Origin: Natrarchaeobius chitinivorans
GTDB taxonomy: Archaea > Halobacteriota > Halobacteria > Halobacteriales > Natrialbaceae
NCBI RefSeq assembly: GCF_003841505.1
Contig: NZ_REGA01000010.1
Coordinates: forward strand, 62,001-126,000
Length of the DNA stretch: 64,000 nt
Direction: 5' to 3'
The notes beneath the pieces are model-generated. The model was not told the DNA's origin and did no database searches. It worked only from the letters and a program-made list of their open reading frames with translations. This document shows, piece by piece, positions 12,112-40,345 of the stretch (the stretch's first letter is position 1; each line of letters opens with the position of its first letter). The position numbers were made by a program, and so were the translations under genes.

Positions 12112-12893
12112 GACTCGTCACCTCCGTCGTCGGTCCCGACGGTGACCGTCCCGCCGTCGGACTCGTCGTCGACCTCGACGGTCCAGTCGTGATCGCCCTC
12201 GCCGAGGTCGTCTGCGTCGACGCTCGTCGTGATCTCCTCGCTCGTTCCGCCCTCGACGACGACCTCCTCTTCGATCGTTTCCTCGCCGATTTCGACGGTG
12301 AGCGTCGTCTCGACCTCCTCGAGCAGGCCGTTTTCGACCGTCGCGGTCAGTTCGACCTCCTCGCCCGGTTCGACCTCGTCGGGCGCGTCGACGGCGAGAT
12401 CCGTCAGGTCGAACTCCTCGGCCTCGACGACGGTCAGTTCGCCTTCCATGTCGTGGTGGCCGGCCCCGCAGTACTCGTTGCAGATGACGCCGTACTCGCC
12501 GGGTTCGTCGAACTCGACGGTCATCGTCGCCACCTCGCCGGGGATGACCATCGTGTTCGTGTTCGTTCCCACGACGGTGAAGCTGTGAATGACGTCGCGA
12601 CTCGTGACGTAAAACGTCACCTCGCTGTCCGCCGGAATCTCGATCGGATCGGGCTGGAACACGAACGTCTGGGCGACGACGTAGGCCGCGTACTCGTCTT
12701 CGCCGACCTGTTCGACGCGGGGATCGGCGAACCGTTCGTCCTCGCCGATCTCGTCGGGAGCGAGCGTCTCCTCTTCGTCGTCAATCATCGTGATCCCGAG
12801 ACCGACGGATCCGTACGTGATCGTCGCAATGAAGCCGACGATCAACACCATCGCGCCGACGATCCACAGTCGTTCGTACGTGTGTATGTTCAT
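12108..12893 (-). CDS. cbaB: Terminal oxidase subunit II with CuA site and an extra C-terminal beta-sandwich domain
   Basis: 261 residues from the ATG at 12893, which overlaps the upstream stop (ATGA). One membrane anchor (about 8-30) is followed by a cupredoxin domain. CuA ligands are the His in DVIHSFTV (about 103) and the cluster CNEYCGAGHHDM (about 133-145), so the site looks complete. After about residue 160 there is an acidic segment (DLAVDAPDEVEPGEEVELT onward) of CARDB/Ig-like composition lasting about 95 residues and ending TVGTDDGGDES. Thermus-type subunit II ends at the cupredoxin fold, so this addition is unusual. It probably faces the cell exterior. Confidence 0.92.
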   Translation of the reverse strand: MNIHTYERLWIVGAMVLIVGFIATITYGSVGLGITMIDDEEETLAPDEIGEDERFADPRVEQVGEDEYAAYVVAQTFVFQPDPIEIPADSEVTFYVTSRDVIHSFTVVGTNTNTMVIPGEVATMTVEFDEPGEYGVICNEYCGAGHHDMEGELTVVEAEEFDLTDLAVDAPDEVEPGEEVELTATVENGLLEEVETTLTVEIGEETIEEEVVVEGGTSEEITTSVDADDLGEGDHDWTVEVDDESDGGTVTVGTDDGGDES

Positions 12894-13276: not shown

Positions 13277-16200
13277 CTACCGATCGGTGCGACTGTACCA
13301 GAGCAGACTGGTCGCAAGTAACAGCGCCAGCAAGCCGGAGACGCCTGTGAATCCTGGTACCGTGTCATCCTCGCCGCTGTCGTCTGTGCCGGTAGCCGAA
13401 GCGTCGGGGTCGCTGTCGTCTGTGCCGGTCTCAGAGCCGTCAGTGTCTCCGTCGGCTGGGTCGCTATCGGAGTCACTGTCGCCCGTGTCACTATCGGAGT
13501 CGTCAGCGTCAGCATCAGAGTCGTCGCCGTCAGCATCAGGGTCGTCGTCAGCATCAGAGCCGTCGTCAGAATCCGGGTCGTCGTCGGAATCAGTATCGCC
13601 GGGGCTGGTATCGGTATCGGAGCCGCCAGTACCGCCGTCCTCCGTATCGCCATCGTCGTCGCCGTTCTCGTCTGGCACGCCGGAACCGCTATCATCACCG
13701 GTGGACCCATCGTCGACAGCGAACGTGAGGTCGTACGTTTCCACGTTTCCGGCTTCGTCCGCCAGAGTCACGGCTGCGGTGTAACTCTCTCCGTCCACGA
13801 CGTCCATCTCGTGTGACGCGCTGGTCGACGTAATTGCCGTCGCCGGGTCGTCGGAGACGTCCGAACCGTCGACGACCAGTTCGACCGCACCGACGTCGAC
13901 TCCCGACCCGTCGTCGTCGTACTCGAACTCGAGAGTTACGTCGTCGGAGCCGTGCTCGAGCGTCTCGCCGTCATCGGGCGTCGTGGCGAGCAGCTCCGGC
14001 GGTTCATCGTCGGTCGCGATCGCGCCGTAGGTCGAGAACTCTTCGACTTCGGCGACCCAGTACTCGCCGTTGACGCCGATCGTATCATCCGCAATCGTCT
14101 CGACGGTCGTTTCGACTGTCTCCCATTCGTCGGTCGATCCGTTGTAGTGTGTGATGTCGACCGCTTCGGGGTCGTCGACACCATCGACGTCCGAGACGTC
14201 GGCGGGGACGTGGATCGTCGCGCTCGTGAGGTTCGCCTCGAGGTCGTCGCCGAGCATCGCAGTGAGGAACCCGGCACCGAGCAGGTCGTCCTCGAGTTTC
14301 TCGTAGGCGTCCTCGTTCTCGGAGACGGCGGCGAACCCGTCCTGCAGGTCGGATTCCGTCTCGAACTCGATGAACGTTCCCGTCTCCTCGTTGTGGAGTA
14401 CGCCCGTTCGATTGTCGGTCGCGAACTCGGTGTCCGCGGTCACTGCCGTGGTTGCAGTCCCGTCGTTGCCCGCCAGATCCGTTCCCTCGATCGTCACGTC
14501 GTACTCGCCGGCAGAATCGAGATCGATCGTGGCGTTCCAGTGGTCGCCATCGGACTGGACCGTCGGCTCCGTAGTCGATCCGTCGGGACCGGTGACGGAG
14601 GCGGTCGGCGCGCCCTCGAGGTCGGTATCGCTACGAATCTCGATGGTGGCCGCCTCGCCGTCGACGTCCTCGATCGCGCCGGTCAGCGACGGCGACTCGC
14701 GGTCGATCACGAGCGTCTCGTCGACCTCGGTCTCGTTATCGAGACCGGCCTCGTCGGTCGCCCGGGCGGAGAGCTCGTACGGCGCGTCGTCCGGGACGTC
14801 CTCGAGATCGATCGTGGCTGTCCACGTCTCGCCGCCGTCGTGGCTCGCCGCGACGTCGTGACTCCACGTGGTCGCGAGCGAGTGGATCTCGAGGTCGACG
14901 GTGTCGACGTCGCGGCCGTCGTCAGCGCTGGCCTCGATCGTGACCGTGACGTCCTCGCTGGCGTACATCGTTCCCTCGTCTGCGGTGTGGGAGTCGACCG
15001 CCGTGATCGATACATCGGGTTTTTCACCGAGCACTTCGACCTCCTCGAGATCCTTGTCGATGTTGATCGAGTACGTCGCGTCGAACTCGTTCTCGAGGTC
15101 CATCCAGAGGTCGTACGTGTCGCCGCTCGGGAGGTCGTCGACGTCGACCGTTGCGTTCCATTTGGTCCCACTGAGGTGGGTTGCGGACTCCTCGAGGTTC
15201 TGCCAGGCGTTGTCCCCGTGGACGATCACGGTCAGATCGCTGATCTCCTCGGTCGCCGGAACGCCCGGTTCGGCGTCGCCTGGTTCCTCGACGAACAGGC
15301 CGATCGTTCCGAACTCGGTGAGGTCGGTTGTCACGACCTCGTTGTCGGTGTCGACCGACGAGTCTTCCAACTCCTCCCACGTTTCATCGGCGTGGTCGTA
15401 GCGCCACAGCGAGAGGTCGGTCGGATCGGCCCCGTCGAGGTGGGCCTCATCGTAGTGCACGGAGAGGTTCAGGTACGAGGGAGTGCCGGACTCCTCTTGC
15501 ACGTCGATGTACGTACCGAGCGAGTGGGCGTTGGGGTTCTCGGCTGGAGCGTGGGTCGCCTCCAGATCCACGTTCTGTGCCCCGAAGGAGACGATGAACT
15601 CCGATGCTGGAGTCGCGGTGAACTCGAACTCGACCTCGTCGCTGGCGTAGACGACCCCGTCATCGACGGAGTCGCCAGTAACGTCGTTGACGGTCACTTC
15701 CGAGGGTGCGCTTACCGTGTAGTTCTCGACGACAGTGGGGCCACTGTCCGACGCGTAGAAGTCCGGGAGATCCCACGGTGCCTGCACGTCGCCACGGTTG
15801 TAGCGAGCATCGATGTCGGCGACTTCGACGCCGGAGACGCCAGTGAGGAGCAACCCGTAGTTGTTCGCGACGATGACGTTGTCCTCGACGACAGCGTCGT
15901 CGCTGCCCGACGCTAGATGAAGACCGTAGTACGCCCCCGTCATCTCGTTGTCCGTAATCACGTTCCCGGGCGAGTCGTAGAGGTACGCGCCGTACCAATT
16001 GTTCCCACTTAGGTCGTTCCCGTGGATCGTGGAGTTCGTGAGGTCGTTGGCCCAGATGCCGTAGTAGCCGTCGATGCTCGTGGAGTTCGTGATCTCGCTG
16101 TCGGTGACGTTCTGCACGCGAATCCCGGCGTTGTCGACTTGGAACGAGGACCAGCTTTCGAGGTGGACGTCGTTGATCACGACGTTCGTCAACTGGCCGT

Positions 16201-38688: not shown

Positions 38689-39144
38689 TTACTCCGTTTC
38701 GACTCGCGTGTCGCGGATCCGATCCGGAACTTCGTCGATGTGCTCGAGGACGACCTTCAGGAGGGCGTCGTGAACTTCTCTCGTCTCCTCGTCTCGTATC
38801 CCCATCCGCCGAAGCTCCGGTGTCACCGTGATGCCGAGTTGGTCCTCGAGTTCGTCCCACGTCTCCCCACGTGCGTAGAGCGGTTTCTGGCGAACCTCGC
38901 TGTACTCGAACGCCGGTCCCGCGTCCGCGGGGGACGCGGTTTCGTCCGGCTGGGTCTGTTCCCCATTCGACGGCTCCGCCGAGTTGGTCGACGGTGTGGA
39001 GTGATCTGTCGGTTCGTTCGCGGCGGGTTCCGGCGCACTCGAGTCGGCCGTCGTCCCGGACGTGGCTGTTTCCGATACGCCCGAGTCGGTCGTCGTCTCT
39101 CCAGCGCCGCCGCTTTCGAGATCGTCGAACGGGTTGTCGCTCAT
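38689..39144 (-). CDS. Disordered partner protein of the ParA ATPase
   Basis: 151 residues. Residues 1-78 are Ser/Thr/Glu/Pro-rich and surely disordered. Residues 79-151 look folded (FEYSEVRQKPLYARGETWDELEDQLG and a helical C-terminus, HDALLKVVLEHIDEV). The start overlaps the ParA stop by four bases (ATGA), so the two are made together. There is no ParB nuclease/HTH signature. By position it is the ParB-equivalent adaptor of a partition-like module, with the disordered part possibly stimulating ParA. I do not recognise a named family. Confidence 0.78.
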   Translation of the reverse strand: MSDNPFDDLESGGAGETTTDSGVSETATSGTTADSSAPEPAANEPTDHSTPSTNSAEPSNGEQTQPDETASPADAGPAFEYSEVRQKPLYARGETWDELEDQLGITVTPELRRMGIRDEETREVHDALLKVVLEHIDEVPDRIRDTRVETE

Positions 39145-40028
39145 GAAGTCGTCCCCCCGTTGGCGACGATATCCGCCAGTTCCTGGTAACAGGCGATCTG
39201 GTCGTTCTCCGGATCGTAATCCTGCAGTGGCTGATTGTGCTGGAGCGACCGCGAGAGTGCAGACCGGTGACGGATTCCCGGTTTCGGTGGCGTCATCTCG
39301 CCCGCGTCGATTCGATCGAACTCCGTCGCCGAAATCCGGGCGAACTCGGGTACTACCTCCTGGAGTGGCTGGCCGTCGTTTACCTCGTACGTCGCCGTGT
39401 TCAGGTTCTCGAGCAGTTCTCGATCCTCGGTCCGATGGTCGATCCGGTCCGAGAGTTTGTTCGGTATGACGGCGAGCACGTCGACGTCGATGTACTCCCG
39501 TGCCGGCTCGATCAGCCGTTCCATCGTCCGTTTGTAGCCGCCGATTGCACTCGAGCCCGGTTCGAGTGGGATCATCACGTTACCGGTCGCGACGAGTGCG
39601 TTGTTGTTGAGCATTCCCGGATATGCCGGGCAATCGAAGACGACGTACTCGTAGGTCTCTCCGAGCAACGGATCGACGATGTTCGATTTGACCCGCGCCG
39701 ATCCTTGCATCGCGCCCGCGAGGTCCTTCTCGACGTCCTCGAGGGTGTTCGAGGACGGAAGCAGGTCGAACCCGTGGTCGGTTTTCCGGATCAGATCACT
39801 CGGGGTCGCATCCCCGTCGAGGAGAACGTCCCGGAGGTTCAACTCGTCCTGGTACGCGTCCTGGAATCCGAGTCCGTTCGTCGCGTGCCCGTTCGGATCG
39901 AGGTCGGCGAACAGCGTGTCACCGCGCTCGGCGAGTTGGCGCGCGAGGTTCATCGAAGTCGTTGACTTCCCGACACCGCCTTTCAAAATTACCACGCTTA
40001 CGGCCCGTGGTGCGTTCGTCGTTGCCAT
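39141..40028 (-). CDS. parA: ParA/Soj-type partition ATPase
   Basis: 295 residues. The deviant Walker A KGGVGKSTT (about 15-23) has the signature Lys of the ParA/MinD group. LFADLDPNGHATNGL is the Walker A' segment, and YVVFDCPAYPGMLNNNALVA the Walker B. Such ATPases bind DNA as ATP dimers and move or position plasmids, chromosomes or protein cargo. It starts an operon with the disordered partner. Its promoter region carries an array of TAGGTR boxes (40048-40246), an arrangement typical of self-regulated partition operons. Confidence 0.9.
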   Translation of the reverse strand: MATTNAPRAVSVVILKGGVGKSTTSMNLARQLAERGDTLFADLDPNGHATNGLGFQDAYQDELNLRDVLLDGDATPSDLIRKTDHGFDLLPSSNTLEDVEKDLAGAMQGSARVKSNIVDPLLGETYEYVVFDCPAYPGMLNNNALVATGNVMIPLEPGSSAIGGYKRTMERLIEPAREYIDVDVLAVIPNKLSDRIDHRTEDRELLENLNTATYEVNDGQPLQEVVPEFARISATEFDRIDAGEMTPPKPGIRHRSALSRSLQHNQPLQDYDPENDQIACYQELADIVANGGTTS

Positions 40029-40047
40029 TGTGTGGATCCGCCCGCTA

Positions 40048-40303
40048 TACCTAAGGTACCTATTGTCGACGGAGTGTCTCTCGTAGCGGACACTCCGTAC
40101 ATCTGGAGTGTTCTACTTAACTTTACCGTAGGTAGATACAATAGGTAGTTTAGGGGGCTTAGGTAGCTTAGGTGAAATAGCTATTTTCACTACCTAAGGT
40201 TAGATAGGTGGTTCAGGCAGAATAGCTTGTTAAGGTAAGGCACCTATTGCAGGTGTTTGCGGCAGCTCAGATGGTTGAGGCACTAAAAATGGCTCAGGTG
40301 AGC
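40048..40303. repeat. TAGGTR box array upstream of parA (possible centromere and operator)
   Basis: Nine TAGGTA/TAGGTG hexamers: forward at 40129, 40142, 40160, 40169 and 40205; inverted at 40048, 40057, 40191 and 40241. Adjacent palindromes are AGGTACCT (40054-40061), AAATAGCTATTT (40175-40186), GGAGTGTC/GACACTCC (40071-40078 and 40089-40096, with a third half-site at 40105) and GCTCAGGTGAGC (40292-40303). Base composition is far more AT-rich than flanking DNA. About 0.2 hexamers would be expected by chance over 200 bases on both strands in random DNA. Arrays like this are parS/operator sites in plasmid partition systems. Confidence 0.7.
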
Positions 40304-40345
40304 TTCACACCGGTGGTGGCGTCGCTCACATAACTATCGTAGCTG

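Follow-up and report, generated by a model that had tools for sequence, protein, structure and literature searches.

Among the partition systems described, delta-omega of pSM19035 belongs to type Ib and combines a small ribbon-helix-helix (RHH) adaptor, omega, with a parS of 7-10 contiguous 7-bp heptads that overlap promoters (PMC4498918), and ParF-ParG-parH of TP228, also of type Ib, uses degenerate boxes with AT-rich spacers (PMC7308502). In archaea, the SegB sites of the SegAB system of Sulfolobus are 13-bp palindromes of the form TCTAGA-S-TCTAGA that occur dispersed around the chromosome (PMC12284271, PMC5120986), and SegB-DNA structures have been deposited (Yen et al. 2021, cited in PMC7617429). 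A 2016 review counted among the open questions the joint segregation of chromosome and megaplasmids in halophilic archaea and the form of archaeal centromeres (PMC5120986). Passages of a 2024 review give SegAB of Sulfolobus and mention ParA/ParB homologues in Asgard archaea, and these same passages contain nothing on a haloarchaeal segregation system (PMC7617429).

We analysed a 64-kb stretch of DNA from Natrarchaeobius chitinivorans (the window), in which a parA gene, an overlapping small gene (the partner) and an upstream array of short boxes stand together. We consider it likely that they form an active haloarchaeal DNA-partition module of the ParABS-like kind, in which the partner would coat the array as a centromere and repress parA. 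On the best reading, the architecture resembles that of the bacterial omega/ParG type, and the module shares several features with type Ib: a ParA without an N-terminal HTH domain, an overlapping small downstream gene and an upstream short-iteron array. Its parts are the following:

38689..39144, minus strand: partner gene, 151 aa, proposed adaptor, 4-bp overlap with parA
39141..40028, minus strand: parA, 295 aa, motor; deviant Walker-A ATPase with KGGVGKST, DLDPN and VFDCP
40048-40065, minus strand: proximal pair of boxes as candidate operator; the sense strand of parA reads CAATAGGTACCTTAGGTA here; distance upstream of the parA start 20-37 bp
40129-40299, no strand assigned: distal array as candidate parS-like centromere; a 9-bp lattice of about 18 units, CAATAGGTR in either orientation
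40048, 40057, 40129, 40142, 40160, 40169, 40191, 40205 and 40241, both strands: TAGGTR hexamers from the motif search

The first-pass annotation had described nine TAGGTR hexamers on both strands, several palindromes and a sharp fall in GC content directly before parA, and all three descriptions proved accurate. The window contains 21 TAGGTR matches, nine of which cluster in 40048-40246 on both strands, and 40029-40328 holds nine compared with a mean of 0.95 and a maximum of 5 in 2000 dinucleotide shuffles of the same stretch. GC content is 0.435-0.49 at 40000-40299, against 0.59-0.68 inside parA and 0.56-0.64 on the far side, and the inverted repeats found in the box region are mostly box pairs. 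The nine hexamers are real but understate the array, which comprises a lattice of about 18 units at 9-bp spacing and a separate proximal element; the hexamers are the best-preserved units of this larger arrangement. When 40138-40299 is written in nine-base rows, an NAG core is recognisable in 14 of the 18, which run TAGGT, TAGGG, TAGGT, TAGGT, TAGCT, ..., AAGGT, TAGGT, CAGGC, TAGCT, AAGGT and then ..., CAGGT, ..., CAGAT, GAGGC, ..., CAGGT. In the window array, 87 matches fall at multiples of 9 bp, against 11.7 +/- 4.4 (maximum 32) in 2000 shuffles. Ratios and shuffles were used because 9-bp lag counts are inflated in repetitive coding DNA. Two other stretches, 13376-13675 and 12126-12425, have raw 9-bp lag counts even above those of the array, with many matches at other lags too, and are probably repetitive coding sequence. 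Between the proximal boxes and the array, at 40069-40098, lies a perfect 10-bp inverted repeat (ACGGAGTGTC/GACACTCCGT, 10-bp loop), which is no general feature among the relatives compared.

The ParA of the window matches AAA_31 (E=2.2e-28) and CbiA (1.6e-12) in Pfam, among solved structures it comes closest to ParA and Soj proteins (8ray, 7.5e-18; 6iub, 3.5e-16), and its identity to five relatives is 73-88%. The P-loop starts at residue 16 and AAA_31 spans 9-171, leaving no N-terminal HTH domain. A sub-group of ParA proteins in the family carries an altered P-loop, KGGFAKTT instead of KGGVGKST (L051, L053, L057, L058, L063, L066, L068, L070, L072, L075, L077, L078, L079 and L082); L051, L053, L057, L063, L066 and L072 lie on contigs of 1.1-3.0 Mb and the others on 50-490 kb.

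The partner profile was found in 199 of 391 sampled haloarchaeal genomes (about half), in 55 of 86 genera, and 95 partner loci were gathered from haloarchaeal genomes. In 94 of these, the partner comes immediately after a ParA-like gene or overlaps it; 60 loci overlap by 4 bp, 21 by 1 bp and 6 by 8 bp, and recurrence of the same gene pair in other haloarchaea is nearly invariant. The 94 include one locus (L056) with a degenerate parA, of rearranged frame and with a duplicated stretch, ahead of an intact-looking partner gene. Haloferax mediterranei pHME132 (L143:3001-3306) carries a stretch resembling the partner that is not annotated as a gene and adjoins no annotated parA, perhaps a remnant. 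Three partner queries retrieved no relatives from viral contigs or from a phage collection.

The array recurs together with the gene pair, lying upstream of parA in almost all loci. TAGGT boxes were counted in 450-bp segments of 48 non-redundant close loci: 343 stand ahead of parA, against 65 in shuffles (maximum 88), 23 downstream of the partner and 1 in the opening segment of parA. The repeat unit in these loci is CAATAGGTR; among the 302 same-strand TAGGT spacings of up to 100 bp, 226 are divisible by nine, and boxes on opposite strands keep a fixed offset. For 40 distant loci (ParA profile score <=350) we used a lag test that assumes no motif, in which 9 bp was the best period in 37. The pooled 9-bp ratio was 4.5 in the distant and 7.3 in the close loci. 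Downstream controls gave 1.7, with periods 6 and 12 scoring at about that level as well. The repeated words themselves differ among distant loci, with CGTACGAATC in L084, AGTAGA in L093 and L096, ATAGAA in L085 and L086, CACCTG in L090, GCCACC/AGGTGG in L102 and TTGTARA in Haloferax lucentense pSVX82-2. The first-pass annotation had staked its proposal of a partition-type module on such recurrence before homologous parA genes; the array was found there in close and distant relatives alike, and the proposal gains support from the joint recurrence of array and gene pair.

Several copies resident in the same genome carry different boxes: in four co-resident pairs (L047/L065, L023/L084, L063/L093 and L058/L096) box similarity is 0.00-0.10, against a mean of 0.42 between close orthologues, which is what replicon compatibility would require. 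Box divergence correlates with that of ParA (r 0.55) and with that of the C-terminal domain of the partner (r 0.43). The partial correlation of partner and boxes given ParA is 0.04 (permutation P 0.19), no significant addition, and because ParA tracks the boxes at least as well, this covariation does not single out the partner as the box reader. Segment by segment, the correlation within the partner peaks at EVRQKP (r 0.47, partial 0.17) and EETREV (r 0.44, partial 0.08), which sit where the strand and the start of helix B of an RHH protein would lie. We did not retain them as box-reading segments, the effect being too weak and the raw k-mer version having no such peak.

The partner of the window consists of an N-terminal NPFDDL motif, an acidic low-complexity tail (about residues 10-75; tail peptide MSDNPFDDLESGG) and a conserved C-terminal domain (76-151). 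Family tails average 70 aa and are 31% acidic, with an NPFDDL/GFDDL-like start in 89 of 94, and the C-terminal core of about 65 aa aligns almost without gaps (PAFEY...Q..LYAR.ETWDEFED...REIHDA.LRLA). The partner had been described at the outset as lacking a ParB or RHH signature. The window protein has no Pfam or NCBIfam match, and 41 diverse family members matched no relevant family in these collections; neither an RHH model was hit nor a ParB-family model, the adaptor type (ParB/Srx CTPase and HTH domains) that a type Ia or chromosomal ParABS would have. A profile of the 41 members found no relevant PDB chain. PDB matches to TFIIE-alpha mainly cover the acidic low-complexity part and were set aside. 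In public records, the relatives are labelled 'hypothetical protein'. AlphaFold predictions of the full-length partner and of its C-terminal domain, from six-sequence alignments, reached a pLDDT of 55-57, the tail being of low confidence. The predicted order of elements in the C-terminal domain, an extended LYAR segment, a helix, a loop and a helix, would suit an RHH fold with a long loop; comparison with a haloarchaeal RHH_1 profile by hhalign gave 0.1%, no support for homology. At this model confidence it is quite possible that the partner is a strongly diverged RHH protein. The suggestion of a new adaptor class is supported in part, namely by the absence of a sequence match to any known family. 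We regard as tentative, and on balance doubtful, a wider proposal: that the partner binds the centromere by means of a fold unlike RHH, HTH and ParB and assembles on the 9-bp lattice. It would then represent a new class of partition adaptors, and the module would be the main segregation system of megaplasmids, and of some chromosomes, in haloarchaea.

Compared with delta-omega, the module likewise joins a ParA to a small adaptor, has contiguous short iterons upstream of the operon, places candidate operator and centromere in the same region and puts a flexible N-terminus ahead of a small domain. It differs in its 9-bp instead of 7-bp lattice, in a partner without detectable sequence relation to omega, in being archaeal, in having parA first in the operon and in the long acidic tail of the partner with its FDDL-like start. 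With ParF-ParG-parH it shares degenerate boxes in AT-rich DNA, a ParA-type gene followed by the adaptor gene, and an adaptor made of an unstructured N-terminal tail and a C-terminal domain. In contrast, the parH boxes are tetramers with spacers, no sequence similarity was detected, and the ParG tail has arginine-finger motifs, whereas the partner tail of the window contains neither arginine nor lysine, and 11 of 94 family tails likewise lack both; a ParG-type arginine finger therefore cannot come from the tail of that copy. SegAB is also archaeal, the 3' end of its ParA-type gene overlaps the 5' end of the adaptor gene, and sites lie just before segA. The module, however, has a dense 9-bp lattice beside the operon, unlike the chromosome-wide scatter of SegB sites. 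TCTAGA-S-TCTAGA with up to 3 mismatches occurs 9 times against 10.1 expected, with none in 40029-40340, and a PDB search with the profile of 41 partner members, extended to E=10, did not bring up a SegB chain. The haloviruses phiH1, phiCh1 and ChaoS9 also have a ParA-like gene overlapped by the gene of a small protein with a low-complexity tail, and the genomes of phiH1 and phiCh1 are maintained as plasmids. Their downstream proteins are no matches to the C-terminal profile of the partner (E 0.02-4), and the DNA ahead of these genes has no 9-bp lattice; we therefore rejected them as family members, their build being analogous without a significant match in the C-terminal domain. In these viruses (ChaoS9, L107; phiCh1, L108; phiH1, L109) the C-terminus of the small protein starts in an RHH-like manner (NMYLPEDLVEEL in phiCh1), and the next gene downstream in phiH1 encodes a similar stretch joined to an HNH nuclease.

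The module is mostly found on plasmids and also on chromosomes. A single-sequence tblastn placed a partner relative on at least 93 plasmid records (for scale, an Orc1 of the pNMAG02 kind is on 406), and plasmids carrying the module range from 39 kb to 1 Mb, including a 916-kb plasmid of Halomontanus rarus and a 55-kb plasmid of Natronorubrum daqingense; other copies are on contigs of 2.5-4.2 Mb, presumably chromosomes. Orc1 is present on pNMAG02 and next door to the module on pHTUR02 of Haloterrigena turkmenica, and ParA, partner and Orc1 are side by side on Haloferax lucentense pSVX82-2, the replicon with the TTGTARA lattice. The length was known for 16 secondary replicons; on these, nine copies are no more than 15 kb from an Orc1/Cdc6 gene among the matches listed, compared with 1.4 expected, and none of 20000 random placements among these Orc1 matches reached nine. 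Short-repeat arrays ahead of partition genes can act in both replication and partition, and this double use, together with a distance from orc1/cdc6 that is often below 15 kb, favours reading the array as origin iterons for Orc1/Cdc6 or another initiator, with parA and partner merely adjacent. We nevertheless find this unlikely. The array stays with parA and partner where Orc1 is not near, as on the contig of the window's copy, which has no Orc1/Cdc6 match, and in four genomes (G045, G175, G278 and G290) in which the module lies more than 100 kb from Orc1 among the matches listed; it also abuts parA. Moreover, the box sequence shifts between module types while the 9-bp lattice is constant, which fits co-divergence with the module.

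The position of the proximal boxes could also indicate that the array is only an autoregulatory operator of the parA-partner operon, with segregation proceeding without a cis site: 43 of 48 close loci have a TAGGT/ACCTA box at -70 to -20 relative to the parA start, a place suited to repression. This seems improbable to us, given that the 18-unit lattice of about 160 bp, beginning 100 bp upstream, far exceeds what a repressor needs, and the roles of operator and centromere are not exclusive, since in omega-type systems the operator is the parS site. Cargo-positioning systems, for their part, include small adaptors with disordered ends, and the ParA profile also matches McdA (6non, 2.7e-10), so that the module might position a protein cargo in the manner of McdAB instead of DNA; the conserved DNA array, the location on plasmids of 39 kb to 1 Mb, the adjoining Orc1 and the absence of a co-conserved cargo gene in the neighbourhoods inspected make this very improbable.

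We thus return to DNA partition, where the anatomy of the locus, read alongside omega (PMC4498918) and ParG (PMC7308502), leads us to infer DNA binding by the partner, stimulation of the ATPase, autoregulation and segregation. Dimers of the partner would bind side by side along the 9-bp lattice through the C-terminal domain, forming a centromere complex, and the disordered tail with its NPFDDL motif may engage nucleoid-bound ParA-ATP and trigger ATP hydrolysis, by which the replicon bearing the array would be pulled or ratcheted away from its sister. At the same time, partner bound to the proximal box pair would repress the parA-partner operon. Several observations speak against this reading: the contig of the window's copy has no Orc1/Cdc6 match, some other copies lie far from Orc1 among the matches listed, box divergence follows ParA at least as well as the partner, and the tail of the window's copy, unlike that of ParG, offers no arginine or lysine.

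We found no published description of the module in the literature searched, which covered part of the subscription papers and no bioRxiv preprints. With the module, about half of the haloarchaeal genomes sampled have candidates for the motor, the adaptor and the centromere of a segregation system, and plasmids of Haloferax and Haloterrigena are among the carriers. It offers a lead on how dividing haloarchaea distribute their numerous DNA molecules. The use of different boxes on the same lattice would explain how several replicons are compatible in one cell.
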